DNA of 64,000 bases from Sphingomonas sanxanigenens DSM 19645 = NX02 (GTDB lineage: Bacteria > Pseudomonadota > Alphaproteobacteria > Sphingomonadales > Sphingomonadaceae): positions 496,001-560,000 of the forward strand of contig NZ_CP006644.1 of the NCBI RefSeq assembly GCF_000512205.2. The letters are read 5' to 3'. The translations under genes were made by a program, and so were the position numbers. A model generated the notes under the pieces. It worked only from the letters and a program-made list of their open reading frames with translations. It had not been told where the DNA came from and searched no databases. Of the stretch, positions 22,505-38,375 are shown piece by piece. Each line of letters starts with the position of its first letter. Positions within the stretch are counted from its first letter, which is position 1.

Positions 22505-22690
22505 CCATTAGGTTAATCTGTTCGTGCAGCCGCTGCCGCAGCGGACCGTCTTCTGGCCGCGACGATCAATAACGGATTATCCGCCTGCTTACGCTGACCA
22601 AGTCGCATGCCCGTCGCCGAATTGATCCCGTGGCGGCTGCACACATCGCTGTCGCCATGCCCGCTTCCTGCTCCGCGCCTCTTCAATTTA
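22505..22690 (-). mobile_element. IS3-family transposase remnant
   Basis: Read on the minus strand in changing frames, this stretch gives EQEAGMATA, then DVCSRHGINSAT, then RPEDGPLRQRLHEQ. The first two match the OrfA helix-turn-helix region of IS3-family elements (EAGM-TADVCR-HGIS-ATFYKWK) and the third matches the start of OrfB. Stops and frame changes make it non-functional. The rest of the 22336-22764 gap shows no gene. Confidence 0.5.
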
Positions 22691-22764
22691 TCGTAGAAGC
22701 TTTTGATGTGTCTTATTAAAATCCTTGGCTTGCCGCTCTCGGTCAGACGATGATTGGACGGATT

Positions 22765-23172
22765 TCAGTTCACTTTCGTCCATATCTGCGATTTGCACAT
22801 GATCCGCCCTGTCAGGCACCCCTTTCCCTCCATCCGCCGATCGTCGAGCGTGGTGATTGTTCCAGAGAAGGTTTGGCCGATGTCGGGTACAAAAACACTG
22901 CCGCGCCACACGCCCTTCTTTTCAGGAACAAAATCGCGAAACAGGATCAGACCTACCAGATCGTTTGTCCCGCCGCGCCGCGCATCCGCCTTGGCTTTGT
23001 CACTTGCCCAGACCACGACCCCGCACATTCTGCTTCCGCACGGCTGGGCTCGCACATGTACGCTGTCCTGCGGATTCTTCCACACTCCGAAAGAAGCGCG
23101 CTGTGCCTCGACGGACGCAGATGCTGCAAGTAGCAGCATGGCTGCCAATACGAAACTGAACCTCATCGCCAT
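22765..23172 (-). CDS. DUF2147 domain-containing exported protein
   Basis: A 135-residue protein. A signal peptide (about residues 1-23, cleaved near VEAQ) is followed by a DUF2147 core: GVWKNPQDSVHVRAQPCGSRMCGVVVWAS, a loop with LVGLILFRDFVPEKKGVWRG-VFVPDIGQTFSG, and the closing GCLTGRIMCKSQIWTKVN. The family is exported and of unknown function. It is 6 bp downstream of the GMC oxidoreductase gene on the same strand. Confidence 0.8.
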   Translation of the reverse strand: MAMRFSFVLAAMLLLAASASVEAQRASFGVWKNPQDSVHVRAQPCGSRMCGVVVWASDKAKADARRGGTNDLVGLILFRDFVPEKKGVWRGSVFVPDIGQTFSGTITTLDDRRMEGKGCLTGRIMCKSQIWTKVN

Positions 23173-23178
23173 TCTTCC

Positions 23179-24771
23179 TCAAGGCCGGATCATCATTTGC
23201 GCGACATTTTCCGCGATCGCCATGGTAGGCGCGTTAGTGTTGCCCGACACGATCGACGGCATGATCGATGCATCGACCACGCGCAAACCGTCAATGCCAC
23301 GTACACGGGCTGCCGGATCGACCACGGATGCCGAGTCACTGCCCATGCGGCATGTTCCTACCGGATGATAGATTGTTTCAGCGCGCGCGCGGATGTCGTC
23401 GATCAGAGCCTCGTCGGTCTGGACCGCGGGTCCCGGTCGCACCTCCTCGCGCAAGTGACGGGCGAGCGCCGGCGCATGAAGGAGCTTGCGGGCTAGCTTC
23501 GCGCCATTCAGCAAGACGCCCACATCATCGGGATGACTGAGATAATTGCCCTCTATGCGCGGATGAGCCGTGGGATCGGCGATCTTGAGCCCGATCCTGC
23601 CGCGGCTCTTCGGTAGAAGGTCGCAGACATGCACGGTCATTCCGTAGCCGAAGGCTGTCTTGCGGCCATGGTCACGCAGGATCGCCGGCAGGAAATGGAA
23701 TTGAAGATTGGGCCGCTCCCGGCCGGCGTCGGATTTGAGGAAAGCGCCGCCCTCCGAGGCATTTGACGTCAATTCGCCTTCATGATGAAGGAAATAGCTC
23801 CATGCGCCGCGTATCGCACGAGGCAGGAAACTGGGCGCCACCCCAAATCCTTCGCGATCGGCCGTGGTTGCCACAGCCGTATAGTCGAGGTGATCGGCGA
23901 GATTGGCTCCGACTTCGGGCGCATCCAGAACGATCTCTATGCCATGCTGCCTGAGTTCGCTCGCCGAGCCGACGCCCGACAGCATCAGAATCTGCGGCGA
24001 ATTGACCGCGCCAGCCGAAAGGATCACCTCTCCACCGGGGCGCAGCAGCAGGTCCCGGCCGCCGACGCGGACCCCGATGGCGCGACGGTCCTTGAACAGT
24101 ATCCGTTCGACGAGGCCGTTCGTTTCGATGGCGAGATTCTTGCGCGAGCGAGCCGGATCGAGAAACGCTCGCGCCGTGCTGAACCGTTGCCCGTCTTTCT
24201 GGGTCACCTGATAGACACCAAAGCCTTCCTGGCTCACGCCATTGAAGTCGGGATTTCGCGGGTAGTGCAGTTCCACCCCAGCTTCGACGAAGTCTTCCGT
24301 AAGTGGGTTCACTCGCCCAAGATTGGAGACGCAAAGTGGCCCGGCATTGCCATGATGCTCGTCGTGGATAGCCTGATTGTTTTCGAGCGCGATAAAAAGC
24401 TCGCGCATGCGCGGCCAGTCCCAGTCAGCTCCGGCGGCCGCCCCCCAGCCCTCATAGTCCGCCCGATCGCCGCGAATGTAGACCATTGCATTGATCGAGC
24501 TGCTGCCACCCAGCGTCTTGCCGCGCGGCCAATAGAGCCGCCGGTTGTTAAGGTGAGGCTCGACTTCGGTCTCACAGTTCCAGTTCACCCATCCCGTGCG
24601 GGCAATGACGCCGACGCCAAGCGGCATGTGAATGAAGGGATTGCGATCGCGCGGCCCCGCCTCGATGAGGCAGACAGCTTTATCCGAATCAGCAGAAAGG
24701 CGGTTGGCCATGACGCAGCCGGCCGAGCCGCCGCCAATGATGTGGTTTCCGTCAGCGCCGAACCGTAACAT
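23179..24771 (-). CDS. GMC family oxidoreductase (choline/alcohol dehydrogenase-like)
   Basis: A 530-residue FAD enzyme. The dinucleotide motif GGGSAGCVMANRLS is followed by the GMC signature PRGKTLGGSSSINAMVYIRG, the second signature GAVNSPQILMLSGVG, and the C-terminal YHPVGTCRMG...DGLRVVDASIMPSIVSGNTNAPTMAIAE with the active-site histidine/asparagine pair. The N-terminus MLRFGADGNHIIGGGS is unlike the usual MFDYIIVGGGS. The first codons seem to have been replaced where the gene meets the AT-rich SUKH gene, whose stop is only 4 bp upstream. Activity may be affected. The substrate is probably an alcohol. Confidence 0.87.
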   Translation of the reverse strand: MLRFGADGNHIIGGGSAGCVMANRLSADSDKAVCLIEAGPRDRNPFIHMPLGVGVIARTGWVNWNCETEVEPHLNNRRLYWPRGKTLGGSSSINAMVYIRGDRADYEGWGAAAGADWDWPRMRELFIALENNQAIHDEHHGNAGPLCVSNLGRVNPLTEDFVEAGVELHYPRNPDFNGVSQEGFGVYQVTQKDGQRFSTARAFLDPARSRKNLAIETNGLVERILFKDRRAIGVRVGGRDLLLRPGGEVILSAGAVNSPQILMLSGVGSASELRQHGIEIVLDAPEVGANLADHLDYTAVATTADREGFGVAPSFLPRAIRGAWSYFLHHEGELTSNASEGGAFLKSDAGRERPNLQFHFLPAILRDHGRKTAFGYGMTVHVCDLLPKSRGRIGLKIADPTAHPRIEGNYLSHPDDVGVLLNGAKLARKLLHAPALARHLREEVRPGPAVQTDEALIDDIRARAETIYHPVGTCRMGSDSASVVDPAARVRGIDGLRVVDASIMPSIVSGNTNAPTMAIAENVAQMMIRP

Positions 24772-24775
24772 CTAG

Positions 24776-25309
24776 CTACTCCTCTTCTATCCCCATCGCT
24801 TTCAAGTCCAATCCCAATTCCTTTAAACTGGGCAGGGGAGGAGGATCGAAGGCTACCAGTGCATCGATAAAGTCATGAAAGCTGTCGTATACGGGGGTTA
24901 TCGCCCTAGAAGGCAGAGCTTCATCGTGCAGCCATACGGATATCTTTCCATCAATTCTGTCAATTAACAGCATATTACCCAGACCGATTTCCGCAAAAAC
25001 CACAGATGTTTTTGGAATCTGCATGGATAATTGTTCGTTTATGCGAATTATTCCTAAGCTTCCGTCAGCAGGGCCATATATAACTGAAACGCCAATTCTT
25101 CCTGAATCTTCGGAATAGGCGCATTTTTCCGCAGGAAATTCAACATCCTTATTGAAAACTATCGCTGATCCGAATTCAATAAATAAATCACGAAGCTCAG
25201 AGGGCAGCAATATCCTTAATGAACTCTCTATCTGGTCTAATTCGATCAAAGAATCTCCCGGCATGTGGAGTGATTCTGCATCGAATGATGGATCAAACTG
25301 AAAGGTCAT
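24776..25309 (-). CDS. SMI1/KNR4 (SUKH) family protein
   Basis: A 177-residue protein with the SUKH pattern: an N-terminal IE-LE--L-I-LPSELRDLFIEFGSA block, a central strand region ending LLIDRIDGKISVWLHDEA, and the late DSFHDFIDALV helix. SUKH proteins commonly act as immunity proteins to polymorphic or contact-dependent toxins. Base composition is clearly AT-richer than both neighbours, pointing to horizontal acquisition. No toxin gene is beside it, so it is an orphan immunity candidate. Confidence 0.72.
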   Translation of the reverse strand: MTFQFDPSFDAESLHMPGDSLIELDQIESSLRILLPSELRDLFIEFGSAIVFNKDVEFPAEKCAYSEDSGRIGVSVIYGPADGSLGIIRINEQLSMQIPKTSVVFAEIGLGNMLLIDRIDGKISVWLHDEALPSRAITPVYDSFHDFIDALVAFDPPPLPSLKELGLDLKAMGIEEE

Positions 25310-25420
25310 ATATTTTCTGCCTTACATCATTAGGGCGTCGCTATCGTGTCCGTTCCGCACCGCGCCTCAATCACGCCACCTGATTGGTATAGCCGTTAGC
25401 GGAGGGGCACGACAATCAGG

Positions 25421-26620
25421 TCAATCTTGGCGCGTCGATGCTTTGATTGGTGCTGCGCTCCATCTACGATTGAATATCCGCCATCCGACTAAGCCCGCGA
25501 CAACGCCCAGCAGGCCGCCCACGAGATAGGCGGTTGGCGCATCATTCGGCACAAAAAAGAAGCCGCCAGCAACATAGCCGCCGATTACGGCGGTGCGTGT
25601 CACCGCACCATAGATCGCGGCGACCTTGCCATGATCGGCGGGCGGGCATTCCGACTGGAACAAGGTTCGGACAGCGACGTTGTGGATGCTGTTTGCGCCG
25701 CCGCCTAGGATGAAGGCGACGGCAACGATTGCCAGCCCGATCGGCGCAAGGCCGATCCACAGCATGGTCGCGCCCATGACAGCGGCCGTGCCGAACGCCG
25801 CCAGTCCGACCCTATGGCCAATAACCCTTTCGGCCAGCCCAGCGCCGATCAACATCCCAACCGCCCATAGTGCCGTCAGCATTCCAAACGCGGTCGGCCC
25901 GCTCCCAGCGTCACCATCACGAGAAACACGAAAGCAACGTCGGCTATGGCGGTCGCAAACACTTCGAGGCTGAGCGCACCCGTAACCACCATCAACCGTC
26001 GATTGCGGAGCAGCGGCAGGTAGTCCGCGAACAGGGTCTCCTCCTCCTGATCGTCCCGTTGTGGCTTGCGGCGAAGCCTGCTCGCCATCACGACGAGGGC
26101 CAAAAGGGCATAACTGGCGGCATCGGCTAAAAGCGCATTGCGCGATCCGATCCATCCCACCAGTACGCCCCCAGCGACTGGACCAGCGAGCATTCCAAGG
26201 CTGCGAACCATTTCCATAAGGGAATTGGCGAGTGCGAGGTCATTCCAAGCCGCTCGCCAGCACTGGAATCAACGCGAATGTTGCGGCGCTGCTGATCGTG
26301 AACAGCACGCTCAACAGCGCGGCCCCGGCGAGCGTGAACATGGGATAATAGGCGATAAATGCTATCACGCCCGCTTGCAGAACTGACACCATGACCAGAA
26401 TGCGGGCCGCCTCCCGGCGGTCGATCAAGCGGCCCGCCCAGGGTGCGGCGATCAGACCGGGTAGCAGCTCCGCGGTCAGCAGCGTCGGCACCGCATAGCC
26501 GGATGCGTTCTCGGCAGTGCGGAACATCAACGTCAGCAACGTGATTTCATCGCCGGTCGTCGAAATCGTAAGCGCCACAAGGACCAACCATCCCCAGCCT
26601 TGCCGAAACTCAACTCCCAC
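25421..26620 (-). pseudogene. MFS transporter, two frameshifts
   Basis: Three consecutive minus-strand frames give one major facilitator protein. The first (26620 to about 26240) begins MGVEFRQGWGWLVLVALTISTTGDE and includes LPGLIAAPWAGRLIDRREAARILV. The second (about 26235-25905) begins with NSLMEMVRSLGMLAGPVAGG. The third (about 25905-25421) begins with GPTAFGMLTALWAVGMLIGAG. Frame changes near 26240 and 25905 each look like single-base indels. The joined product would be about 395 residues with 12 membrane segments, normal for drug or efflux MFS proteins. Confidence 0.8.
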
Positions 26621-26702
26621 TCACTTAACCTTCCGCACAGCCCCGCACTTTCCGGGTCACTCTGCACACTTCAAATCTCAACCGACAATCAGGTGAATAG
26701 CT

Positions 26703-28070
26703 TTAGCGTTGTTCTGCCAACCACTTAAGCGCCGATAGGCTTGGCATGAACAGATATTCGCCTCCCTTCATGACATTGAAGGTCTGCACACCGTCGATGC
26801 GCTTGCGCGCAGGCGCCTGCGGGATCGTGAACCGGCCGTCCTCCTCATGCAGACCAACGATTGGATCGCGCTCCTCGCCGAGGTCGACGAAATTGCCGCG
26901 GTTGATCCATTCCTGCTGCATGAACTCGATCGTGTCGTAAGCGCGCGCGCTTATGAAGATGAAGAACAGGCCGCGATCGCCTTTGGCATCGTCTTTCGGC
27001 GCCACATCCTCGGAATAAACCGGCCCGAAGGTCGAGGAACGGCGGATGATGCGGTGAATGTTGACGTCGGTGAGCAGTGTCAGCTCGGAATCGCGGGGAT
27101 TGAGCCGGCGCATATGACAGCCGAGCGGCACGACGCGGCCTTTGGGGTCGTCCTTGAAATTGAAGTCGTTGTTGCGCTGCGGATCGGCGCCGAGGTCCGG
27201 GTCGTCATGATCCGGCGACAACGTCAGTGGAGCGCCTGACCGCCAGCGACCGAACATCTTGGCGGCAAGACGTTCGCGGTCCTCCGCCGTCTCGCCATGG
27301 GCCTTGAGGAAGGCGTTGAAGCAGCCGACCCGGCTGTTGTACTTGCGCAGGACGACGAAGGTGCCGTTCTTTCCCAGCGCCGCAGGTTCAGGCATGCCGA
27401 GCGGCTGGCCGTTCTCGCTCTCGTATCCAAGGATGAACTCGCCCGCCTTGATCGCGCGTTCCTCGCCGGGCAGCGGATCGACGCCGCTGCCTTCGACGGC
27501 GGGCTGGGAGATCGAATCCCGGAAGCCGAACGGGTTTTTCGCGCCGTCCGGCGCGCCGAAGCGATGCTCGCCGATCAAGGTGACGCCGCTGCTCTGGTCG
27601 AGTTCGGTTCGCGCGGTCGCCAGCGCCTTGTCGAGCGCCGCATCGTCGACCGCGTAGATGGTCAGCGCGAGATGGCAGTTGCCCGGCTTGAACACGTCCT
27701 CCCAGTTTTCCGGCGCGTTGGGTCCGAAGTCGCGGAGCTGCTCCGAGCGCGCCGCCATGCCCTGCTGAAAGGGGAGCGGGAATGTCTTGAGCTGCGCTTC
27801 AGGAACGCCGAGCGCCTTCAGTCCCTCGAAGCTGAGTGCAGCGCCTATCCAGAAATCGAGATCCTCGTTCCAGTTGTCGGCGGATGCGATATGGGGCGCG
27901 AGCCGGCCCAGCAAAGCGCGCGCGCCCTCGGCCTCGTCGAAATGGAGCATCGCATGGATGCCGACATAGGGCTCCGGCCGGCTTCGCAGGATCAGCGCCT
28001 GGATATCGTGCAGGTCGAGCGTAACGCTGTCCCTCGAGAAGCGCTCTTTCAGCTTTTGAAGGATCGTCAT
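26703..28070 (-). CDS. Dyp-type heme peroxidase
   Basis: A 455-residue peroxidase. The distal catalytic segment is GFRDSISQPAVEG (the GxxDG-type region) and the proximal heme histidine is in GCHMRRLNPRD. A further GLFFIFISARAYDTIEFMQQEWIN motif in the second ferredoxin-like domain is typical of DyP enzymes. No Tat signal is visible, so it is probably cytosolic. It is the last gene of a three-gene unit, starting 4 bp after the preceding stop. Substrates may be dyes, lignin-like phenolics or organic hydroperoxides; none can be assigned from sequence. Confidence 0.92.
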   Translation of the reverse strand: MTILQKLKERFSRDSVTLDLHDIQALILRSRPEPYVGIHAMLHFDEAEGARALLGRLAPHIASADNWNEDLDFWIGAALSFEGLKALGVPEAQLKTFPLPFQQGMAARSEQLRDFGPNAPENWEDVFKPGNCHLALTIYAVDDAALDKALATARTELDQSSGVTLIGEHRFGAPDGAKNPFGFRDSISQPAVEGSGVDPLPGEERAIKAGEFILGYESENGQPLGMPEPAALGKNGTFVVLRKYNSRVGCFNAFLKAHGETAEDRERLAAKMFGRWRSGAPLTLSPDHDDPDLGADPQRNNDFNFKDDPKGRVVPLGCHMRRLNPRDSELTLLTDVNIHRIIRRSSTFGPVYSEDVAPKDDAKGDRGLFFIFISARAYDTIEFMQQEWINRGNFVDLGEERDPIVGLHEEDGRFTIPQAPARKRIDGVQTFNVMKGGEYLFMPSLSALKWLAEQR

Positions 28071-28073
28071 CGC

Positions 28074-28685
28074 TCAGCCCACCTTGTCCAGGAATTCGTT
28101 GACGGCATGTTCCATCCGCTGAAGCCGACGCACGTCGACGACCGTGACCTGCGGGTTGGCGACGAACCATCCGGCGGCGGTGATCTGATGTTCGGCGATG
28201 AAATCCTTGACCTTCGGGCTCGCGATGCCCGGCCAGCCTTCGACCGAGGCGAAGAGCAAATCCATCAGGTCAGGGATCTTGGTGGCGAAGTCGTTGATAT
28301 AGGTGTCCCAGTCGCCGTCATAGGCGGTGGCGAACAGGATGCGGGTGTCGTTGTCGAAGAAGACGAACCGCATGTTGTGCAGGGTGCCGACCTTCTGCGC
28401 CCCGTCGAAATTGCCGTTCACGAGTCCGAAGATGCGTTTCAGCCGGTCCGCGCCGCCCGGCTTGAGGTTGGCGATGGCGGTGAGCTCGGAGACATTGCCG
28501 GACTGCGCGCCGACGCGACCGGCCGAGCCGGCCGTGCCCTTGAGGTCGGGATTGTGCTTCGTCACCATCTGCTCGAGCGCGAGCTTGGCGAGCTGCGGCG
28601 CGTCGCCGGCCACTTCCTCGATCCGCCGCCGGATGGCCTGAAGGCGGGTTTCGTCGATCTGCGGGTTTTCTTCGGTCTCGGCCAT
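28074..28685 (-). CDS. Unrecognised conserved-looking protein between two heme peroxidases
   Basis: A 203-residue protein with no motif I can name securely. The N-terminal half is polar and helical. The core (LHNMRFVFFDNDTRILFATAYDGDWDTYINDFATKIPDLMDLLFASVEGWPG) has the look of a ferredoxin-like or dimeric alpha/beta-barrel strand-turn-helix module. A further stretch, AAGWFVANPQVTVVDVRRLQRME, follows. ATG 28685 is preceded by AAGGAGG at good spacing. It sits 40 bp after the catalase-like gene and 3 bp before the DyP gene, so it is almost certainly co-transcribed with both and may be a partner or substrate-binding subunit. Confidence 0.75.
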   Translation of the reverse strand: MAETEENPQIDETRLQAIRRRIEEVAGDAPQLAKLALEQMVTKHNPDLKGTAGSAGRVGAQSGNVSELTAIANLKPGGADRLKRIFGLVNGNFDGAQKVGTLHNMRFVFFDNDTRILFATAYDGDWDTYINDFATKIPDLMDLLFASVEGWPGIASPKVKDFIAEHQITAAGWFVANPQVTVVDVRRLQRMEHAVNEFLDKVG

Positions 28686-28725
28686 GACTGGCCTCCTTTC
28701 GTGATTGCGTGTGTCGATCGGTGCG

Positions 28726-29814
28726 TCAGTCCGGGATGGCGTCAATGTTTGTCGGCTCGACACGCGGCTGCGCGTTCATCTCATGGCGGTAGCGGGTGGA
28801 TCGCTCATAGGCGGCGATGCGCACCCGCATGATCGATCCGAGCGGCTGGTGCTCGCGGATACCGTGCCAGGGATTGAACGACAGCACGTCATCGCCATAG
28901 ACCCGCCGCGCCGGCGAATAGGCGTCCTGCGGCGGGATGCGCAGCGTGGCGATCGGCTGGTGTGGCGACAGCTCTTCGGGCCAGAGCACCGCCGCGTCCT
29001 CGACAGGCATCTTGTCGAGATCAGCGCAAAGTTGGGCGCGCAGTTGATACTCAGCACCCTGGTCGCGGAAATGCTCGACAACCAGATCGCGCATCGTAGA
29101 ATCCTCCACTGTGCCGACGTCCTTGCCGGTGAGCGCGCGGACATTGTCGGAAAGCGGCGCGGCGCTGATCTTGGCGATGTGATCGCCAAAGCGGATCGCC
29201 GCCATCGAGTGATAGGTCTCGCCGAGCAGATGGTCGTTGTCGCGCGCGAGCCCGCGCAGCGTCGCGCCGGGCTCGACGCCGACCGCTTCGACCGCGGCTT
29301 CCACGCCACGCGCCACCCCGGCCATGGCGCGTTGGAGGAAGGCGGGGTTCTGCGCATTCTTCTCCAGAAGGCCAATGAGCTGGCGATATTTACCGATCGT
29401 GCCGAAGCTCAAGGTCGGGATGTTGACGAGCAGGAAATCCTGATTGCGGCCCTGGTCGTCGGGCAGAAGCCGCTCTCCCTCCACGCCGATGACCTTGATC
29501 GCCATGCCGCGTGGGGCGGGGATGGTGTCCGAGTGGATATCTCCGGGCGCTGATGAGAGGCGGATCACCACGGAATAGGTGGCCGGGCGAGCGAAAAGCC
29601 CCTGGCGCAGATGCTCCGGCAGTTCCGGGACGACGAGTTCGCCCTTCAGGAACCCGTGGCTCTTGGCATGGGCGTCGCGCACCGCATGCCGATGGCGCTC
29701 GAACGCCTTGCGGTTGGTGCTCGCCATGATTTCGAGGATTTCGGCGGTGAGCCGCTCCTCGTCTTCGCCGAGCACTTCGACGCTGGTGGAGTAGGGGATA
29801 TAGGTCTCAGCCAA
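28726..29814 (-). CDS. Small catalase family hemoprotein
   Basis: A 362-residue protein, much shorter than classical catalases (about 480 or more). It is of the catalase-related class known from mycobacteria and pseudomonads. The distal histidine region is RDAHAKSHGFLKGEL (about residues 46-60), followed by RPATYSVVIRLSSAPGDIHSD, the RGMAIKVIGVEGERLL segment, NQDFLLVNIPTL, and the late YGDDVLSFNPWHGIREHQPLGSIMRVR-AAYE-S region. Described members of this class have organic-peroxide-dependent peroxidase or fatty-acid hydroperoxide activities rather than strong catalase activity. It is first in a unit divergent from the TetR/oleate-hydratase genes. Confidence 0.85.
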   Translation of the reverse strand: MAETYIPYSTSVEVLGEDEERLTAEILEIMASTNRKAFERHRHAVRDAHAKSHGFLKGELVVPELPEHLRQGLFARPATYSVVIRLSSAPGDIHSDTIPAPRGMAIKVIGVEGERLLPDDQGRNQDFLLVNIPTLSFGTIGKYRQLIGLLEKNAQNPAFLQRAMAGVARGVEAAVEAVGVEPGATLRGLARDNDHLLGETYHSMAAIRFGDHIAKISAAPLSDNVRALTGKDVGTVEDSTMRDLVVEHFRDQGAEYQLRAQLCADLDKMPVEDAAVLWPEELSPHQPIATLRIPPQDAYSPARRVYGDDVLSFNPWHGIREHQPLGSIMRVRIAAYERSTRYRHEMNAQPRVEPTNIDAIPD

Positions 29815-29849
29815 GGGCGATCCTTCGAACCGGATTTTCGTTGCATTCG

Positions 29850-29867
29850 AGATATCAGGTGATATCT
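29850..29867. promoter_or_regulatory. Perfect 18-bp palindrome between divergent units (TetR operator candidate)
   Basis: The sequence AGATATCAGGTGATATCT has two perfect 8-bp arms around a GG spacer. It lies 36 bp upstream of the catalase-like start and 69 bp before the TetR start, exactly between the divergent units. Size and symmetry fit a TetR-family site, so the adjacent TetR probably controls both directions. Confidence 0.65.
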
Positions 29868-29935
29868 GGTTTTACGGTGAACGCCGACATGGGTAAAAGG
29901 TTTCCATGCCGTGCTGAATTGGAGGTCGATCGCTC

Positions 29936-30550
29936 ATGCGCCTCACGCGAAAGGAAACGCAGCGCCAGACGCGGGATAAGCTGCTCGCCGCAGCACATTC
30001 GTCCATTGTGGAAGAAGGGGTGGCGGCCATGTCGATCCGCAACATCTGTAGTGCAGCGGGTCATTCGCAGGGGGCCTTCTATTCGAATTTTGCAAGCAAG
30101 GACGATCTGCTGGTCGAGATTCTGCAGGCTCATATCCAGGACGAGGTCGTGCTTCTGCGCGATCTGGTCGCCCACTGCTCCGGCGATGATATCGAGGCGA
30201 CTCTGCAAGTGCTTGCGGCGCGGCTGGCTAAGCTGGCTGACGAACAGCATTGGTCGCTGCTTTCGATCGAATTGCAGCTTCATGCGCGGCGGGACCCCGC
30301 GTTCGCTGAACGGCATCGCGAAGGAAAGGCCGCCTGCCACCATTTGTTCGGAGAACTTGTGGCGGATCTGACGCGGCGCTTTGCGCTTCGGCCTGCCTTG
30401 CCGCCGCTGCAGACCGGGATCGGCCTCTATGCACTGTGGATGGGACTGGCGGTCCAGGGCGATGTCGAAGGCGCTATTCCCCGAGAGCAAATGCTTGTCG
30501 GCTTCTTTCGCGCGATGGCAGGCCTCGATGCGCCATCCACCCGGTCATGA
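29936..30550 (+). CDS. TetR family transcriptional regulator
   Basis: A 204-residue regulator with helix-turn-helix RQTRDKLLAAAHSSIVEEGVAAMSIRNICSAAGHSQGAFYSNFASKDDLL and a C-terminal ligand-binding domain. It heads a four-gene unit with thioesterase, hydroxyacyl-CoA dehydrogenase and oleate hydratase; its stop overlaps the thioesterase start (ATGA). The upstream palindrome at 29850-29867 is the obvious operator. A fatty acid or acyl-CoA is a plausible ligand, judging only by the neighbours. Confidence 0.88.
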   Translation: MRLTRKETQRQTRDKLLAAAHSSIVEEGVAAMSIRNICSAAGHSQGAFYSNFASKDDLLVEILQAHIQDEVVLLRDLVAHCSGDDIEATLQVLAARLAKLADEQHWSLLSIELQLHARRDPAFAERHREGKAACHHLFGELVADLTRRFALRPALPPLQTGIGLYALWMGLAVQGDVEGAIPREQMLVGFFRAMAGLDAPSTRS

Positions 30551-31044
30551 GCCTTCCTGGCGAAGGACGCCGCAGGATCGGCTGCGATGCTTCAGGCGTG
30601 CCCTTGGCTGGAAAAGTGGACGAACGTCGGCGCTTCCATATCCGTTTCCAGGCAACCGAAGAAGACATCGATGAACTCGGCCATGTCAACAATGCGGTCT
30701 GGGTGACCTGGATTCAGGATGTGTCGGTGGCGCACTGGCTGACAGCCGCGCGTCCGAGGGATGCCGACACCTATGTTGCTATGGTGCTCAGGCACGAGGT
30801 CGATTACCGCGGCAATATCCGGGCGGGCGAAGAGACCTTTGCCATAACCTGGGTCGAAGGGAAGCCGCGCGGAGCGAGATACGCCCGGTGCGTCGAGTTC
30901 AAAGACAGTAACGGTCAGACGCTCGTCGCGGCCCTGTCGCAATGGGTGCTCATCGAGAAAGCTACCGGCAAGCTGGTTCGCGTGCCCGCCGAAGTCGCTG
31001 CGCCGTTTCTCTATGAAACCCGACGCAAGGAAGAGAATGAATGA
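30547..31044 (+). CDS. Acyl-CoA thioesterase (4-hydroxybenzoyl-CoA thioesterase-like, hot-dog)
   Basis: A 165-residue hot-dog thioesterase with F-ATEEDIDELGHVNNAVWVTWIQDVSVAHW, the classic D--GHVNN-VY-------A motif. The family's VDYRGNIRAGEE and SQWVLIEKATGK strands follow. ATG 30547 overlaps the tetR stop by 4 bp; the open frame runs upstream but only antiparallel to that gene. The end overlaps the next ATG by 4 bp. It may release hydroxy or other unusual fatty acids from CoA in this pathway. Confidence 0.85.
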   Translation: MSLPGEGRRRIGCDASGVPLAGKVDERRRFHIRFQATEEDIDELGHVNNAVWVTWIQDVSVAHWLTAARPRDADTYVAMVLRHEVDYRGNIRAGEETFAITWVEGKPRGARYARCVEFKDSNGQTLVAALSQWVLIEKATGKLVRVPAEVAAPFLYETRRKEENE

Positions 31045-31904
31045 GCGACATCCTGAAAGTGACGGTGCTAGGCACCGGTGTCCTCGGCAGCCAGATCGCC
31101 TTCCAGGCCGCCTATAGTGGCTTTGACGTTACCGCTTATGAGATCAGCGACGAAGCACTCGACCAGGCGAGGCATCGGTTCGAAACGCTTGTAGAAACCT
31201 ACGTGAAAGAGGTGACGGGTGCGGCTGACGGCAAGGCAGCCGAAGCTTCGAGACGCATCACGCTCACCGCCGATCTTGGGGCTGCGGTTGCGAATGCCGA
31301 TCTGGTCATCGAAGCGGTTCCGGAAGTGCTCGAGATCAAGCAGGCGCTCTACGAGAAACTGGCGGGGCTCGCGCCTGACAGAACGATCTTCGCCACCAAT
31401 AGCTCGACTTTGCTGCCGAGCGACCTCAAAGCCTTCACCGGCCGCCCGGACCGTTTCCTGGCGCTGCACTTCGCCAACAGCATCTGGAAGTTCAACACTG
31501 CCGAGGTGATGGGTACGGACGACACCGATCCGGCCGTGTTCGATACCCTGATCGCCTTCTCCTCCGCGATCGGCATGGTGCCGATCCCGGTGCGCAAGGA
31601 AAAAGCGGGCTACGTCCTCAACTCCCTGCTGGTGCCGTTCCTGAACGCGGCCACCGATCTGGCTGCCGGCGGCTATGCCGAGCCGGAAGATGTCGACAAG
31701 GTCTGGCGGATCGCCACCGGCGCGCCGATGGGGCCGTTCCAGATCTACGACATCATCGGATTGAACACCCCCTACAACATCCTGTCGCACGGTGATGAGC
31801 ACGCACAGTCGCTCGCCGCGTGGCTGAAGGAAAACTACATCGACAAGGGCAAGCTCGGCATCGCGTCGGGCGAAGGCTTCTACAGCTACAAGCCCGCCGA
31901 CTGA
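31041..31904 (+). CDS. 3-hydroxyacyl-CoA dehydrogenase (short, HBDH-like)
   Basis: A 287-residue NAD-dependent dehydrogenase. The Rossmann motif GTGVLGSQIAFQAAYSGFDVTAYEIS is at residues 11-36. The active-site stretch is TNSSTLLPSD...ALHFANSIWKFNTAEVMGTDDTDP, and the family C-terminal domain has GYVLNSLLVPFLNAATDL and GFYSYKPAD. It is a stand-alone enzyme without a crotonase domain. Translational coupling to the thioesterase, and oleate hydratase 27 bp downstream, suggest it oxidises hydroxyacyl-CoA esters derived from hydrated fatty acids. The normal 3-hydroxy substrate remains possible. Confidence 0.9.
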   Translation: MSDILKVTVLGTGVLGSQIAFQAAYSGFDVTAYEISDEALDQARHRFETLVETYVKEVTGAADGKAAEASRRITLTADLGAAVANADLVIEAVPEVLEIKQALYEKLAGLAPDRTIFATNSSTLLPSDLKAFTGRPDRFLALHFANSIWKFNTAEVMGTDDTDPAVFDTLIAFSSAIGMVPIPVRKEKAGYVLNSLLVPFLNAATDLAAGGYAEPEDVDKVWRIATGAPMGPFQIYDIIGLNTPYNILSHGDEHAQSLAAWLKENYIDKGKLGIASGEGFYSYKPAD

Positions 31905-31931
31905 TCCCAACAAGAAAAACAGGAGTTTGCC

Positions 31932-33698
31932 ATGCATTATAGCAGTGGAAACTATGAAGCCTTTGTCCGTCCACGCAAGCCGGAAGGCGCCGACAAAAAG
32001 ACGGCGTGGTTCGTCGGCTCGGGCCTCGCGGGGCTCGCCGGCGCCGCCTTCCTGATCCGCGACGGCGGCGTTTCGGGCGACCGCATCACCATATTGGAAG
32101 AGCTGGAAATCCCCGGCGGCGCGCTCGATGGTCTGGACGTGCCCGAAAAGGGCTTCGTCATTCGCGGCGGCCGCGAGATGGAGGAGCATTTCGAGTGCCT
32201 GTGGGACCTCTATCGCTCGATCCCCTCGCTGGAGATCGAGGATGCCAGCGTGCTCGACGAGTTCTACCGGCTCAACAAGGACGATCCCAACTTTTCGCTG
32301 CAGCGAACGACGCAGAACCAGGGTCAGGACGTGCCCGACAAGGCGCTGCTAACGCTCAACGACAAGGCGCAGAAGGATCTCCTCTCGGTCTTCCTTGCGA
32401 CGCGGGAGGAGATGGAGAACAAGCGCATCAACGAGGTCTTCGGCGAGGACTTCCTCAAGAGCAATTTCTGGCTCTACTGGCGCACCATGTTCGCCTTCGA
32501 GGAATGGCATTCCGCGCTGGAGATGAAGCTCTACCTGCACCGCTTCATCCATCACATCGGCAGTCTCGCCGACTTTTCCTCGCTCAAGTTCAATCGCTAC
32601 AACCAGTATGAATCGATGGTCCTGCCGCTGGTGAAGTGGCTGACCGATCACGGGGTTAAATTCCGCTACGGCGTCGAGGTCACCGATGTCGATTTCGACA
32701 TCCAGCCCGGCTCCAAGCAGGCGACGCGCATCCACTGGAAGGAGCGCGGCGTCGAAGGCGGCATTGATCTCGGGCCCGACGATCTCGTCTTCATCACCAT
32801 CGGCTCGCTGACCGAGAATTCCGACAATGGCGACCACAGGACACCGGCGAAGCTCAACGAAGGACCGGCGCCGGCCTGGGACCTGTGGCGGCGGATCGCG
32901 GCGAAGGATCCGGCCTTCGGCCGCCCGGACGTATTCGGCGCCCATATCCCGGAGACGAAATGGGCCTCCGCGTCGATCACTGCCCTCGACGCCCGCATTC
33001 CGGCCTATGTCGAGAAGATCACGAAGCGGAACCCCTTTACCGGCAAGATCGTCTCCGCCGGTATCGTCACGGTGAAGGACTCGGCGTGGCTGCTGAGCTG
33101 GACGGTTCATCGCCAGCCGCATTTCAAGAAGCAGCCCAAAGATCAGATGATCGCCTGGTTCTACGCGCTCTTTGTCGATTGCCCCGGCGACTTCGTGAAG
33201 AAGCCGATGCAGGAATGCACCGGTGAGGAGATCACCCAGGAATGGCTCTATCACCTCGGCGTGCCGGTCGAGGACATTCCCGAACTCGCGGCATCCGGCG
33301 CCAGCACCGTTCCCACGATGATGCCCTATATTACCGCCTTCTTCATGCCGCGCCAGGCGGGTGACCGGCCGGACGTGGTGCCGGAGGGCGCGGTCAACTT
33401 CGCCTTCATCGGCCAGTTCGCGGAGTCGAAGCAGCGGGACTGCATCTTCACCACGGAATATTCGGTGAGAACCCCGATGGAGGCCGTCTACACGCTGATG
33501 AATGTCGAGCGCGGCGTGCCCGAGGTCTTCAACTCGACCTATGATATCCGTACACTTCTTGCTGCGATCGGTCCGCTGCGGGACGGCAAGGGCATCGATC
33601 TTCCCGGGCCGGCCTTCCTGCGCAAACTGCTGATGAAGAAGCTCGAAGGCACCGAGATCGCCAAGCTGCTCGAAGAGTTCCATCTGATCGAGGAGTGA
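31932..33698 (+). CDS. ohyA: Oleate hydratase (FAD-dependent fatty acid double-bond hydratase)
   Basis: A 588-residue member of the MCRA/oleate hydratase family, which adds water to cis double bonds (oleate to 10-hydroxystearate). The FAD motif GSGLAGLAGAAFL is at residues 29-41. The catalytic loop region RGGREMEEHFECLWDLYRSIPS follows, then WRTMFAFEEWHSALEMKLYLHRF and NQYESMVLPLVKWL. An end block includes VPEGAVNFAFIGQFAE and FTTEYSVRTPMEAVY. Length fits the family (560-650). It is the last of the tetR-thioesterase-dehydrogenase-hydratase unit. Such enzymes detoxify unsaturated fatty acids and feed hydroxy acids into metabolism. Confidence 0.95.
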   Translation: MHYSSGNYEAFVRPRKPEGADKKTAWFVGSGLAGLAGAAFLIRDGGVSGDRITILEELEIPGGALDGLDVPEKGFVIRGGREMEEHFECLWDLYRSIPSLEIEDASVLDEFYRLNKDDPNFSLQRTTQNQGQDVPDKALLTLNDKAQKDLLSVFLATREEMENKRINEVFGEDFLKSNFWLYWRTMFAFEEWHSALEMKLYLHRFIHHIGSLADFSSLKFNRYNQYESMVLPLVKWLTDHGVKFRYGVEVTDVDFDIQPGSKQATRIHWKERGVEGGIDLGPDDLVFITIGSLTENSDNGDHRTPAKLNEGPAPAWDLWRRIAAKDPAFGRPDVFGAHIPETKWASASITALDARIPAYVEKITKRNPFTGKIVSAGIVTVKDSAWLLSWTVHRQPHFKKQPKDQMIAWFYALFVDCPGDFVKKPMQECTGEEITQEWLYHLGVPVEDIPELAASGASTVPTMMPYITAFFMPRQAGDRPDVVPEGAVNFAFIGQFAESKQRDCIFTTEYSVRTPMEAVYTLMNVERGVPEVFNSTYDIRTLLAAIGPLRDGKGIDLPGPAFLRKLLMKKLEGTEIAKLLEEFHLIEE

Positions 33699-33739
33699 AC
33701 AAAGACCGGAAGGCACGCGCGGCGTGCGAAAGGTGATGA

Positions 33740-36229
33740 ATGGCCGACGACGATCAGAAGAGCGAACGCGCCGCCGAGGTGACTGGGGCGCACGGCCATC
33801 ATCACCATCATGAGCCGGACGGCGAAACGCCGTCCGGTCACGTCGACCATGATCCGGTCTGCGGCATGGTGGTCGATCCCGCCAGGACCGCTCACAATGC
33901 TGAGTATGAAGGCGAGCGCTACGTCTTCTGCTCGGCCGGCTGCAAGGCGAAGTTCGACGCCGACCCCGTGCATTATGCGGCACTGGCAGCGCATGCTGCA
34001 CATCACCATGAGGGTGCTGCCGCCCATGGCGATCATTCCCACCATAGCCACACGCATGGACCTGATACCCATGAGCATCACCACGTTGCGGCAGTAACGG
34101 CAACCGCAACGGAAGGGACGATCTGGACATGCCCGATGCATCCGGAAATCCGCCGGGATGCGCCGGGTAGTTGCCCGATCTGCGGCATGGCGCTGGAGCC
34201 GCTGATCGCGGCGGCGGATGCCGGATCAAGCCCCGAACTCGCCGATATGACCCGACGCTTCTGGATCGGCCTCGTGCTCGCCTTGCCCGTGTTCCTGCTG
34301 GAGATGGGCGGTCACCTGATCCCGGCGCTGCACCATTTGGTGCCGATGCGCATCTCGATCTGGATCCAGTTCGCGCTGGCGACGCCGGTGGTCCTGTGGG
34401 CCGGATGGCCGTTCTTCGAACGTGGCTGGGCGTCGATCGTCAACCGCAGCCTCAACATGTTCACGCTGATCGCGATGGGCACCGGGGTCGCCTGGGGCTA
34501 CAGCATCGTCGCGACATTCGCGCCGCAGCTCTACCCGCAGGCTTTCCGAGGCGCCGATGGCACGGTCGCGGTCTACTATGAGGCCGCGGCCGTGATCACC
34601 GTGCTGGTGCTGCTCGGTCAGGTCATGGAACTGCGCGCCCGGGAGCAGACCTCCGGCGCAATCCGCGCGCTTCTCAATCTCGCGCCGAAAACCGCCCGGC
34701 GGATCGGGCGGAACGATGCTGAAGAGGATATTCCTGTCGAAGCCGTCGTCATCGGTGATCGGCTCAGGGTCCGGCCCGGTGAAACCGTGCCGGTTGACGG
34801 CGTGGTCGAGCAGGGTCGCTCATCGATCGATGAATCGATGGTGACCGGCGAATCCATGCCGGTGACGCGTGTAGTCGGCGAAGCGGTCGTAGGAGGTACG
34901 CTGAACCAGACCGGCGCGCTCGTCATCCGGGCTGAAAAAGTCGGGCGCGACACCATGCTCGCCCGCATCGTCCAGATGGTCGCGGATGCCCAGCGCTCGC
35001 GCGCGCCGATCCAGCGCATGGCTGATCAGGTGTCGGGCTGGTTCGTGCCGGTCGTCATCGCCGTCGCGCTGCTCGCCTTCGCGGCCTGGGGTGTATGGGG
35101 GCCGGAGCCGCGGCTGGCGCATGGCCTGATCGCGGCCGTTTCCGTGCTGATCATTGCCTGCCCCTGCGCGCTCGGGCTCGCGACGCCGATGTCGATCATG
35201 GTGGGTATCGGCAAGGGGGCGGCCGCCGGCGTTCTGATCAAGAACGCGGAGGCGCTCGAGCGGATGGAGAAGATCGATACTCTGGTGGTCGACAAAACCG
35301 GGACGCTTACGCAAGGAAAGCCGGCGGTGACCCGGATCGTCGTGGCCCCGCGATTTGTCGAGGAGACCATCCTGCGGCTTGCAGCCGGCGTGGAGAAGGC
35401 GTCCGAGCATCCGCTTGCGCGGGCGATCGTGGCGGCTGCCGACGAGCGAAAGATCACCATCCCCGATGTCGCCGACTTCGACTCGCCGACCGGCAAGGGG
35501 GCGATCGGTCGTGTCGAGGGCCGGCATGTGGTGCTCGGCAGCACCACCTTCCTCGCCGAACATGGGGTTGATACAGCGCCGCTCGCGGCACAGGCCGATG
35601 AGCTACGCCGCGACGGCGCAACCGCCATCTATATCGGCATCGATAAAGCCATCGGCGGCATCTTCGCCATCGCCGACACGATCAAGGCGACCACGCCTGA
35701 GGCACTGAAGGCCCTGCATGCGGAAGGCATCCGCATCGTCATGCTGACCGGTGACAATCGCACCACAGCCGAAGCCGTTGCGAGAAAGCTCGGCATCGAT
35801 GAGGTCGAGGCCGATGTGCTGCCGGACCAGAAAGCCGCGGTCGTCGAGCGCCTGAAGGCGCAGGGCAAGGTGGTGGCGATGGCGGGTGACGGCGTAAATG
35901 ACGCGCCGGCGCTTGCCGCCGCCGATGTTGGTATCGCCATGGGATCGGGGACCGACGTTGCGATCGAAAGTGCGGGCGTGACGCTGCTCAAGGGCGATCT
36001 CACCGGCATTGTCCGCGCGCGACGCCTGTCGCAGGCGACGATGGCCAACATCCGCCAGAACCTCGCCTTCGCGTTCATCTACAATGCGGCAGGCGTACCG
36101 ATTGCGGCCGGTGCGCTCTATCCCACGTTTGGGCTGCTGCTGTCGCCGATCATCGCTGCTGCCGCGATGGCGCTGTCGTCCGTCAGCGTCATCGGCAATT
36201 CGCTGCGGCTCCGGACAGTGAAGGCATGA
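33740..36229 (+). CDS. Heavy-metal (copper-type) translocating P-type ATPase
   Basis: An 829-residue P1B ATPase. Its N-terminus has a His cluster (HGHHHHH, about 18-24), a YHS domain ([10 protein letters not shown]...VFCSAGC, about 38-80), a second long His-rich stretch (about 86-117) and a heavy-metal-binding domain (WTCPMHPEI...[10 protein letters not shown]). The catalytic core shows TGES, the transmembrane [16 protein letters not shown] (phosphorylated Asp about 517), SEHPLARAI and [14 protein letters not shown] plus a YHS/HMBD N-terminus indicates Cu(I) or Ag(I) export. It starts 41 bp after ohyA; a small GCACGC-GCG-GCGTGC hairpin (33713-33727) lies between. No CopZ or CueR gene is adjacent. 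Confidence 0.9.
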
Positions 36230-36237
36230 CGGACCAA

Positions 36238-36262
36238 GGCCCCGACCTTGTGGCGGGGTCTT
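36238..36262 (+). terminator. Terminator candidate after the P-type ATPase
   Basis: A GC-rich stem GGCCCCG / CGGGGTC (one G-T pair) with loop ACCTTGTGG is followed by TT, 8 bp after the ATPase stop. The U-tract is weak but position and stem strength fit an intrinsic terminator. Confidence 0.5.
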
Positions 36263-36272
36263 GCGTGGGGTC

Positions 36273-36372
36273 TTAGTCGGCGCGCCTGCCGTTGGGGCGG
36301 GACCAGATCAGCGAGAAGGTGTCTTCGCCCTCGTTGTCGAAGAGGTTGGCATAGATCAGAGCGCCGATCTTC
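36273..36372 (-). pseudogene. DUF736-like C-terminal fragment
   Basis: A minus-strand frame ends EKIGALIYANLF...DTFSLIWSRPNG and then stops at 36273. It resembles the LYANL...D-F---W tail of DUF736 proteins, which are frequent on integrative and conjugative elements of alphaproteobacteria. No start or N-terminal part is present. It abuts the recombinase fragment. Confidence 0.4.
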
Positions 36373-37230
36373 TCATGATGCCCTCGGCTGTCAGGGCGTC
36401 CGCGATCTGACGGTCGAGTGATCCCACAGCATTGAGCGTTCGCACCATCTCCTCGATGCGTGCGAAGTGAGCCAGATCGTCATAGTTGGCGGTATTGCGG
36501 ATGATCACATGCTCTGTTCGCGCGCCGGTCTGCCACAGGATCGCGAACCAGATACGGCCTTGCGCACGGCTCTTGTCGACCGTCACGCTGTCGATCACGA
36601 GCCGCATCATCTCTTTGCGTTCGTCGATGCCAGCCCGCTTCGAGAACGCGGGCAACAGGGTCGGCAATGGTCAGGATACGCGTTCGCGCGGCGGCGGCCA
36701 GGGCGTTAACCTGCTCGACATGCCACCGCGCGTAATCCTGTTAGACGCGTCGGCTTCGCGTATTTTCTCTTCCCACAACGTTTCCAGCGAACGTGCGACG
36801 AGCCGCTTTTCCGACTCCACGGCATCATATTGTCGGCGTGCACGCTCCGCTTCGTAATGCGCCTTCTCCCGATTCAGCGCCCATTGACGTTCCAGCAGCC
36901 GGTTTTCGCCGTTCATCTGTTCATGAGCCGCAAGCGCAAGGTCGATGCGATCGGGTTGCAGAGCTTCGATCAACAGCCGCTCGACCTCTGCATCAACCTG
37001 GTTTGCGCGCACATTCTGGCAGTGCCCGCTCTGCTCGCTATCGATGCAGTGATAGACGGGGGTCTTCTTATGGGCAGAGTGAGTGAAGACCCATGCGGTG
37101 TCCGCATATCCCGCAGACCACGATGCCTTGAAGCATCGCTGCGCCACGCAGGGGCGCTCCGCGCCGGCCAGCGCTGAAGTTGCCGATATTGTCGGCGAGC
37201 CGCCCGACGTTGCTCATATATGCCTCCCAT
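36356..37230 (-). pseudogene. Large serine recombinase C-terminal remnant, frameshifted
   Basis: Three minus-strand frames join into the C-terminal part of a large serine (Pin/Cin-type) recombinase. The order is NVGRLADNIGNFSAG...GIVVCGICGHRMG (start of the zinc ribbon), TPVYHCIDSEQSGHCQNVRANQVDAEVERLLIEAL followed by a coiled coil of L-ER-----EKAHYEAERARRQYD type, and LVIDSVTVDKSRAQGRIWFAILWQTGARTEHVI near the end. The catalytic N-terminal domain is missing and frames change near 37145 and 36670. This is a dead mobile-element gene. Confidence 0.7.
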
Positions 37231-37275
37231 TGGCTATGCCGATGAGCCCGCGTAGGTGGTGACGCCATAGCCATA

Positions 37276-37290
37276 TAGACGACTGGTCTA
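37276..37290. promoter_or_regulatory. NemR/AcuR-like operator candidate
   Basis: TAGAC-GACTG-GTCTA is an inverted repeat 14 bp upstream of the TetR start. It resembles the TAGAC...GTCTA boxes bound by NemR-like TetR regulators that respond to electrophiles. Position next to a tetR-ohr-quinone-oxidoreductase unit supports autoregulation. Confidence 0.6.
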
Positions 37291-37303
37291 TTATTCGTTA
37301 TAT

Positions 37304-37942
37304 ATGCTGATCATGAATTTGACACCCAAAGCAGAAGCGACCCGGCAAAACATCCTCGACACGGGCTACAGCCTTGTGTTGAGCAAGGGCTTCTCCGCGC
37401 TCGGCCTTCAGGAAATCTTGAAGGTTTCCGGCGTGCCGAAGGGGTCTTTCTATCATTATTTCCCGTCCAAGGAGGCGTTCGGCTGCGCACTTCTTCGTGA
37501 TTACGTGGACGGTTACGGCAAGAAACTGGACTCGCTGTTATCCGCGGAAGCCATAAGCGGTCGCGAGCGGTTGATGCGCTATTGGCGAGCGTGGCTCGAT
37601 GATCCCGGGGAAGGTGATCAAGCCGGAGACGGCTGGGCCGAGGATTGCCTCGCCGTCAAACTGTCCGCCGAAGTCGCGGACCTGTCGGAGGCCATGCGGG
37701 CCGTTCTGAGCGATGGCGTCGCACGATTGCTGCAACGCATCGCCTCCATGATCGCCGAGGCGCGCGAGGACGGATCGCTTCCACCGGGGGCGGAGCCGTC
37801 CGCGCTGGCGCAGGTTCTCTACCAGATGTGGCTTGGCGCTGCGCTGCTCGCCAAACTCACCCGTTCTCGTGCGCCGATGCAACGGGCGATGATCGCCACC
37901 GAGCAGATTCTGGTCTGCACGCCGCAATCCAACCATCCGTGA
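37304..37942 (+). CDS. TetR family regulator (NemR/AcuR-like)
   Basis: A 212-residue regulator with helix-turn-helix EATRQNILDTGYSLVLSKGFSALGLQEILKVSGVPKGSFYHYFPSKEAFG. The FYHYFPSKEAFG ending and the C-terminal AEDCLAVKLSAEVADLSEAMR region are typical of NemR/AcuR-type proteins, which sense electrophiles through cysteines (here a cysteine in AEDCLAV). ATG 37313 is an alternative start. ohr follows after 13 bp and an MDR oxidoreductase 9 bp later, giving a compact stress-response operon. Confidence 0.88.
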   Translation: MLIMNLTPKAEATRQNILDTGYSLVLSKGFSALGLQEILKVSGVPKGSFYHYFPSKEAFGCALLRDYVDGYGKKLDSLLSAEAISGRERLMRYWRAWLDDPGEGDQAGDGWAEDCLAVKLSAEVADLSEAMRAVLSDGVARLLQRIASMIAEAREDGSLPPGAEPSALAQVLYQMWLGAALLAKLTRSRAPMQRAMIATEQILVCTPQSNHP

Positions 37943-37955
37943 AAGGAACCGAAGA

Positions 37956-38366
37956 ATGAAAATTTTCTACAAGACCCGCGCAACGGCGACCGGTGGCCGT
38001 TCAGGCCACACGGCGCTCGACGACGGCAGCCTCGGCCTCGATCTCGCCATGCCGAACTCCGGCAAGCCGGGCGCCAACCCGGAGCAGCTGTTCGCGATGG
38101 GGTATGCAGCTTGTTTCGACAGTGCGCTCAACCATGTCGCCCAGCAGAAAAAGCTGGCGCTGATGGGTAGCAAAACGTCCGCGGAGGTCGGAATCGGGCA
38201 GACGCCTGAGGGCGGCTTCAAGCTGGACATCGACATTCATGTGGAAATCGCGGGTCTCGATGAGGCCGCCGCGCAGGAACTGGTCGAGGCGACGCATCGG
38301 GCCTGCCCCTATTCCAACGCCACACGCAACAACATCGACGTGCGCCTGCACGTCATCACGGTTTAA
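37956..38366 (+). CDS. ohr: Organic hydroperoxide resistance protein (Ohr/OsmC family)
   Basis: A 136-residue thiol peroxidase that reduces organic, especially fatty-acid, hydroperoxides using lipoyl or dihydrolipoamide-type donors. The peroxidatic cysteine is in GYAACFDSAL and the resolving cysteine in HRACPYSNATRNN, with the N-terminal RATATGGRSGHTALDDGSL strand. Length is normal. Ohr is usually regulated by OhrR (MarR); here the adjacent regulator is a NemR-like TetR instead. Confidence 0.95.
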   Translation: MKIFYKTRATATGGRSGHTALDDGSLGLDLAMPNSGKPGANPEQLFAMGYAACFDSALNHVAQQKKLALMGSKTSAEVGIGQTPEGGFKLDIDIHVEIAGLDEAAAQELVEATHRACPYSNATRNNIDVRLHVITV

Positions 38367-38375
38367 GGAGGCGTC

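Follow-up and report, generated by a model that had tools for sequence, protein, structure and literature searches.

A described system resembling the locus studied here is that of Staphylococcus aureus, in which the oleate hydratase OhyA and the FarR/FarE pair, a TetR-type regulator and a pump, act against antimicrobial unsaturated fatty acids; the hydratase detoxifies palmitoleic acid, the TetR-linked pump handles other fatty acids, and lipid peroxidation contributes to the toxicity of these compounds (PMC12098983; this and the papers below are cited for individual passages). Another is found in Deinococcus radiodurans, where a DyP-type peroxidase (DR_A0145) and a homologue of eukaryotic-type catalases (DR_A0146) are neighbours and are not linked to fatty acids in the literature passages cited. 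We have analysed 64,000 nucleotides of Sphingomonas sanxanigenens NX02 (positions 496001–560000 of contig 1 in a 6.58-Mb genome; hereafter the window), which hold a block of two divergent arms. One is a trio encoding a small catalase-like protein, an unrecognised protein (UNK) and a DyP; the other encodes a TetR-type regulator, an acyl thioesterase, a 3-hydroxyacyl-CoA dehydrogenase and an oleate hydratase, with a heavy-metal P-type ATPase as eighth gene. The staphylococcal genes are separate and their pump is of the resistance-nodulation-division (RND) type (PMC12098983), whereas here the hydratase, dehydrogenase, thioesterase and trio share an operator and the exporters are of the HlyD/ABC-2 type. 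The likeness to D. radiodurans (locus L100) extends to DyP (57% identity), UNK (61%), the catalase-like protein (55%) and the dehydrogenase (55%), but the gene order is different (dehydrogenase-UNK-DyP-catalase-like), as is the TetR, no operator is present, and no oleate hydratase lies within the 14.6 kb read. On balance, we regard the block as probably a mobile TetR-controlled regulon directed against toxic unsaturated and oxidised fatty acids.

The operator, AGATATCAGGTGATATCT, has perfectly complementary arms of 8 bp each, separated by the dinucleotide GG, which cannot pair with itself. A first-pass annotation, made from the letters of the window, had described it as a perfect 18-bp palindrome between the two arms; the palindrome is real and is located there, although only 16 of its 18 positions pair. 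It does not arise from chance, since the window contains two matches with up to three mismatches against 0.09 expected from shuffled sequences, and a whole-genome pattern search retrieved only three sites with at most one mismatch. Two of these belong to two copies of the unit, and the third, with one mismatch, is found 96 bp before an operon encoding an alpha/beta-hydrolase, HlyD, an RbbA-like ABC protein and an ABC-2 permease. The second copy (L006:4058-13171, around 1.992–2.001 Mb of contig 1) is 1.47 Mb away from the window and has the operator in the equivalent place; genes in the order HlyD-ABC2-ABC2 adjoin it. Protein comparison of the two copies gave identities from 71% (thioesterase) to 98% (UNK), and the ATPase reading frame comprises 675 amino acids in the second copy versus 829 in the window. 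In Rhizobium sp. LC145 (L054) a homologue (58%) of the hydrolase from the exporter operon comes after DyP.

We have then compared 87 loci encoding UNK, comprising the window, the second copy, 66 loci from a collection of named genomes, 16 of 33 plasmid records and three other sphingomonad loci. The TetR gene is divergent from the catalase-like gene in 55 of them, and in 54 of these an operator with up to three mismatches is found between the two genes, the sole miss being L091; in the other 32 loci, some of which are ended by contig ends, there is no operator within 500 bp of the trio genes. When the region upstream of the catalase-like gene was examined in 17 representatives, 14 had a site, and for each of these none of 300 shuffles was as good; those lacking one are L091 (5 mismatches, 2/300 shuffles as good), L102 (4 mismatches, 0/300) and L104 (7 mismatches, 214/300). 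The operator also occurs with arms that stand alone, as all three loci with TetR, thioesterase, dehydrogenase and oleate hydratase but no trio (L153, L154 and L155) have a site before TetR, with three mismatches each. The Aureimonas locus L079 has two extra sites before oleate hydratase (three mismatches each), as well as a site with one mismatch between an HlyD gene and another TetR. All 20 TetR sequences aligned from loci of this set contain the motif QGAFY, which we take to be in the recognition-helix region; the Deinococcus TetR, whose locus has no operator, lacks it. Across 298 genomes of the family, seven sites with at most one mismatch were found. This count alone is no proof, because a uniform-base estimate predicts about 11 sites (a reversed-pattern control gave none), and it is their placement that carries weight: three are in this genome, two are beside the trio (G098 and G289) and two are inside unrelated reading frames. 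The latter, in G168 and G152, have one mismatch and were set aside as chance matches, no queried system gene being near them except for a 31% ABC-ATPase match in G168. These results make a shared regulon with a common operator, as the first-pass annotation had proposed, very likely from the sequence comparisons, and the presence of the operator both at divergent loci and before the TetR of units restricted to the oleate-hydratase arm indicates that one switch most likely serves both arms, together or singly.

Some further observations concern the operator and the exporters. In Tsuneonella suprasediminis a second operator with one mismatch (L090:10755-10772) precedes another TetR, beyond a cut UNK gene. 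In the window, a weak match with three mismatches at 18903-18920 falls in an open reading frame and is kept in five near-identical island copies (L039, L041, L042, L043 and L092); as an operator for the TolC exporter it is treated as unproven, being about 2.6 kb beyond the TolC gene. Both exporter operons of the window, TolC-HlyD-ABC2 (11674-16326, with a divergent TetR) and HlyD-RbbA-ABC2 (59367-64000), are homologous to exporters adjoining the unit elsewhere; they were rejected as regulon members, no site with up to three mismatches being found beside either.

The core of the system is the catalase-like/UNK/DyP trio. Every locus that holds both genes, 85 of the 87, has DyP no more than 1.5 kb from UNK; the exceptions are L098, which stops at a contig end, and L090, where the UNK gene is cut. 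For a count of neighbours, the loci were grouped in 27 clusters at 92% UNK identity and a gene was scored for a cluster when one or more of its loci had it within 10 kb. Detection was by tblastn, which misses divergent genes, so that the TetR genes annotated in L100 and L104, like the HlyD gene annotated in L110, are uncounted. On this basis DyP accompanies UNK in 27 clusters, the catalase-like gene in 22, TetR in 10, an HlyD/ABC-2 exporter in 6, the dehydrogenase and the thioesterase in 4 each, the ATPase in 3 and oleate hydratase in 2, and any lipid gene, exporter or P450 is found in 10. The first-pass annotation would have been refuted if the two units never occurred together in other genomes; this is not the case, as all seven genes occur in 22 of the 87 loci (window and second copy included; in one of the 22, L057, some genes were detected only in part).

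The lipid genes that join the trio are rare ones. Oleate hydratase gave 17 matches in 12 of 367 alphaproteobacterial genomes (E 1e-60) and, in the family to which this genome belongs, was present in 19 of 298 genomes (E 1e-20), while the dehydrogenase type gave five matches in 4 of 289 genomes (E 1e-90), three of them adjoining oleate hydratase. A chance meeting within around 10 kb is improbable. For oleate hydratase, present in 2 of 27 clusters, the estimate is about 2e-5; for the dehydrogenase, with 4 of 27, it is about 4e-13. Both values assume a mean genome size of 2.5–4 Mb and an alphaproteobacterial background, two of the dehydrogenase clusters being from other groups. The trio is accompanied by a PRK08293-type dehydrogenase scoring above the cut-off in D. 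radiodurans, Acinetobacter, Rhizobium and Aureimonas; on a 12-kb plasmid of Acinetobacter lwoffii the order is UNK-DyP-catalase-like-dehydrogenase, with HlyD, the dehydrogenase matching its family twice in tandem and the catalase-like protein being only 28% identical. Loci combining both arms are of two separate kinds, the main one and that of L079 and L102 (the oleate hydratase of L079 shows 43% identity, and L102 has a different order). A Sphingomonas locus has a thioesterase and a patatin-like phospholipase after DyP. Among 20 oleate hydratase loci of the family that were read over a wider stretch, including a third oleate hydratase copy of the window genome, three have TetR, thioesterase and dehydrogenase, one more has TetR and two have HlyD/ABC-2 genes.

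In respect to the heme proteins, the DyP passes the TIGR01413 profile (101.4 versus a cut-off of 100.5 bits), and the distal Asp, distal Arg and proximal His are kept in 80 of 80 aligned sequences, seven of the 87 loci having been dropped because they have no stop-free DyP of more than 380 amino acids. The choice of the His and Arg columns is in part our assumption. Residue roles otherwise follow PMC10820274. The GXXDG fingerprint fails, its fifth residue being S in 62, A in 6, M in 1 and G in 11 of the 80 sequences, so that by profile and residues the protein appears to be a variant DyP. Its best solved relative is the putative peroxidase 8re2/8re3, which we identify with the D. radiodurans enzyme (DrDyP, DR_A0145) because the L100 protein has the same motif, GYKDM, and the paper describes Met190. 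DrDyP is inactive at physiological pH, its activity being almost nil above pH 4, and at pH 7.5 its heme is low-spin; a Met-to-Gly mutant is still low-spin at this pH, and the authors consider that Met is without effect on activity and speculate that protein partners may govern the enzyme (PMC10820274). Given this speculation, UNK is an obvious candidate partner. The same paper notes that it is unclear which substrates DyP peroxidases use and what they do physiologically (PMC10820274).

The catalase-like protein is below the Pfam catalase cut-off (20.5 versus 25 bits) and its alignment profile matches catalases only over positions 27–110 or thereabouts. A model with a predicted local distance difference test score (pLDDT) of 69.5 matched catalases, 3e4w and 1u5u in Foldseek, with E from 4.4e-9 and a template modelling (TM) score of about 0.5. 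The last two, a 33-kDa protein of Mycobacterium avium subsp. paratuberculosis and an allene oxide synthase, share with it the small size and the His, Arg and Tyr residues, but are remote, with 13–19% identity in the structural alignments. His, Arg and Tyr are found in 74 of 74 aligned catalase-like proteins and Asn in 72 of 74, and the model points to a catalase-related hemoprotein fold with a distal His and a proximal Arg-x-x-x-Tyr. His49 is the sole residue aligned directly to catalases; Asn131, Arg332 and Tyr336 have the roles that we presume from catalase motifs. We know of no activity for this subfamily. According to PMC7247583 the D. radiodurans protein lacks catalase activity, and this, together with the inactivity of its DyP neighbour at physiological pH, hints at another substrate; both DR_A0145 and DR_A0146 are reported to be raised under ultraviolet C (UVC)/vacuum (PMC5731708). 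The two D. radiodurans neighbours, puzzling because one is a DyP without activity at physiological pH and the other a catalase homologue for which no catalase activity is reported, now belong to a conserved set with a third, unstudied protein.

This third protein, UNK, matches nothing in Pfam or NCBIfam at E 0.001, and profiles of Pfam and PDB compared with 24 members gave weak matches only, none credible. Its AlphaFold2 model (pLDDT 59.7) has no PDB match below E 0.001; the best ones are LsrG, mutarotase, ABM and NIPSNAP proteins (best E 0.0046), which hints at a ferredoxin-like fold of the dimeric alpha+beta barrel kind. In two sphingomonad proteins of around 1450 amino acids (L116:157-4569 and L117:2486-6820), a UNK-like region is flanked by a P450 and by the C-terminal domain of a DyP, and the order P450-catalase-like-UNK-DyP occurs in Methylorubrum and two relatives. 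A tentative and rather doubtful extension is that the trio might form one three-part heme enzyme of an undescribed kind, in which UNK would activate a DyP otherwise unreactive towards H2O2 at neutral pH, the complex would act on fatty-acid hydroperoxides, and the P450-UNK-DyP fusions would be a one-chain version. On the Methylorubrum populi plasmid (L114:4034-10007), genes for a ferredoxin, a FAD-dependent oxidoreductase and a P450 are directly upstream of catalase-like-UNK-DyP.

The enzymes of the opposite arm are of known kinds. The oleate hydratase matches PF06100 with 702.8 bits over positions 1-495 of 495 and NF010584 with 871.9 bits versus a cut-off of 567, and has 4ia5 and 7kav as PDB relatives; it belongs to the family and is predicted to hydrate a cis double bond. 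The dehydrogenase scores 412.9 bits against PRK08293 (cut-off 312) and has as best solved relative the diketoreductase 4dyd; what differs here is that the gene is tied to oleate hydratase and the trio. Searches of the open-access literature, most subscription journals being outside its scope, listed no paper joining oleate hydratase to DyP or to the trio; the operator, the UNK trio and the link of the trio with lipid genes were likewise not found, and a search on the hydroxystearate/dehydrogenase link returned no paper. Within the literature searched, what appears new is the gene combination, the operator, the UNK trio and the lipid link.

The block also appears to move horizontally between genera. 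Positions 22509-38685 of the window match Sphingobium sp. CECT 9361 at 100%, and the eight genes (about 26716-36207) match at 88–90% in Shinella lacus, Pseudoroseomonas, a metagenome-assembled genome (MAG) of Parvibaculum and one of Hyphomicrobiales; in other matching genomes the match stops earlier. Seven-gene loci are found in Sphingobium, Novosphingobium, Sphingomonas, Brevundimonas, Shinella and Roseomonas/Pseudoroseomonas, as well as in MAGs. On a plasmid of Roseomonas mucosa AD1 the unit lies amid IS66 and IS21 genes. Such a block for fatty-acid stress would thus move between genera, including to the plasmid of a R. mucosa strain from human skin.

Taken together, TetR would repress both arms and its own gene until a free fatty acid, an acyl-CoA or an oxidised derivative binds. 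Oleate hydratase would then hydrate the cis double bond, the dehydrogenase would oxidise the hydroxy (or hydroxyacyl) group so formed and the acyl chain would be released by the thioesterase, while the catalase-like protein, UNK and DyP would remove or convert fatty-acid hydroperoxides formed from such lipids, UNK being most likely the partner that renders DyP active at neutral pH. An ABC exporter would clear the lipid and the metal ATPase would lower copper, a driver of lipid peroxidation. A role in fatty-acid stress is the more probable case, and a lipid hydroperoxide is a plausible substrate of the trio. Since operator and gene content tie the trio to fatty-acid hydration, oxidation and export, the substrate question becomes directly testable. 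The shared regulon of the first-pass annotation is retained in this proposal, to which the ATPase, the exporter link and the mobility, left out by it, are added; the occurrence of the oleate-hydratase arm without the trio counts against that earlier reading.

Several observations weigh against a fatty-acid function of the whole. In 20 of 27 clusters none of the genes for oleate hydratase, dehydrogenase, thioesterase and phospholipase was detected near UNK (7 have at least one of them), and only 2 of the 22 clusters with a full trio have oleate hydratase within 10 kb (20 are without). No lipid gene or HlyD-type exporter gene was found near the trio in the Ketogulonicigenium locus L106 or in L083, L086 and L087 (few neighbours were scanned in the last three); UNK-DyP without the catalase-like gene is found in four Bacteroidota loci. 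L091 has a TetR with QGAFY yet no site. The D. radiodurans catalase-like protein has Thr at the position of Asn131 and its inactivity may therefore not carry over; moreover, it is still listed among catalases (PMC7143949, PMC5731708).

Nickel provides a further point of this kind. In Sphingobium ba1 exposed to nickel, and not to a lipid, genes annotated as oleate hydratase are 35.9-fold enriched, and catalase, fatty-acid metabolism and copper binding are also raised (PMC5557971). This response would fit co-regulation of such a unit if the ba1 genes belong to one, and it supports a metal as inducer as much as a lipid. Together with the raised DR_A0145 and DR_A0146 under UVC/vacuum (PMC5731708), and with the finding that 20 of the 30 main-cluster loci have a complete or partial copper-type ATPase close to UNK, it speaks for a general island against metal and oxidative stress, in which TetR would sense membrane or redox damage and the fatty-acid enzymes would mend membranes after metal stress, with no detoxification of outside fatty acids. 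We consider this unlikely, though deserving of weight, as only 3 of 27 clusters have the ATPase close to UNK and the operator is tied to the trio, the oleate-hydratase arm and the exporter. The P450 genes bring in a different view, that of an oxylipin route, biosynthetic or catabolic, in which oxygenated fatty acids would be produced or converted by the trio, as products or as nutrients, much as by the peroxidase/P450 fusions of fungi; the two P450/UNK-like/DyP proteins and the gene order of Methylorubrum and its two relatives would agree with such a route. Yet no gene named lipoxygenase is among the annotated neighbours of 16 plasmid loci, and defence fits the exporters and the metal ATPase better, which leaves an oxylipin route rather improbable. 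That the arms are chance neighbours on one mobile element, sharing only an operator captured by one TetR, agrees with each arm occurring alone but is very improbable: combined loci are of two separate kinds, the dehydrogenase joins the trio also in Deinococcus and Acinetobacter, and the operator is common to arms that occur singly. A regulon against toxic fatty acids thus remains our preferred reading.

The layout of the block is given in Table 1. The seven genes and their directions in the first-pass annotation were borne out by reading-frame and family checks. The reading frames of tetR and thioesterase, and those of thioesterase and dehydrogenase, overlap by 4 bp; the intergenic region between the arms yielded no sigma-70-like promoter call. 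The ATPase starts after a gap of 41 bp from oleate hydratase and accompanies the unit in many loci.

Table 1. Features of the block, with positions counted from the first letter of the window.
Feature	Position	Strand	Remarks
DyP-type peroxidase, 455 aa	26703..28070	-	Distal motif GFRDS replacing GXXDG
UNK (unrecognised protein), 203 aa	28074..28685	-	No Pfam/NCBIfam match; ferredoxin-like core tentative, from a model
Small catalase-like hemoprotein, 362 aa, TTG start	28726..29814	-	His49/Asn131 distal, Arg332-x-x-x-Tyr336 proximal
Operator, probable TetR site	29850..29867		Conserved palindrome AGATATCA-GG-TGATATCT
TetR/AcrR-type regulator	29936..30550	+	C-terminal domain BetI-like
Acyl thioesterase	30547..31044	+	4HBT_2 / acyl-ACP thioesterase-like
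3-hydroxyacyl-CoA dehydrogenase	31041..31904	+	PRK08293/diketoreductase type
Oleate hydratase (MCRA family)	31932..33698	+	Pfam, NCBIfam equivalog, PDB relatives
Heavy-metal (copper-type) P-type ATPase, eighth gene	33740..36229	+	YHS and HMBD domains

At the borders of the block, a fragmented reading frame at 25421-26620, downstream of DyP, resembles by eye an MFS transporter, and a fragment at 36356-36667, just past the end of the ATPase, resembles by eye a recombinase, perhaps tied to mobility.

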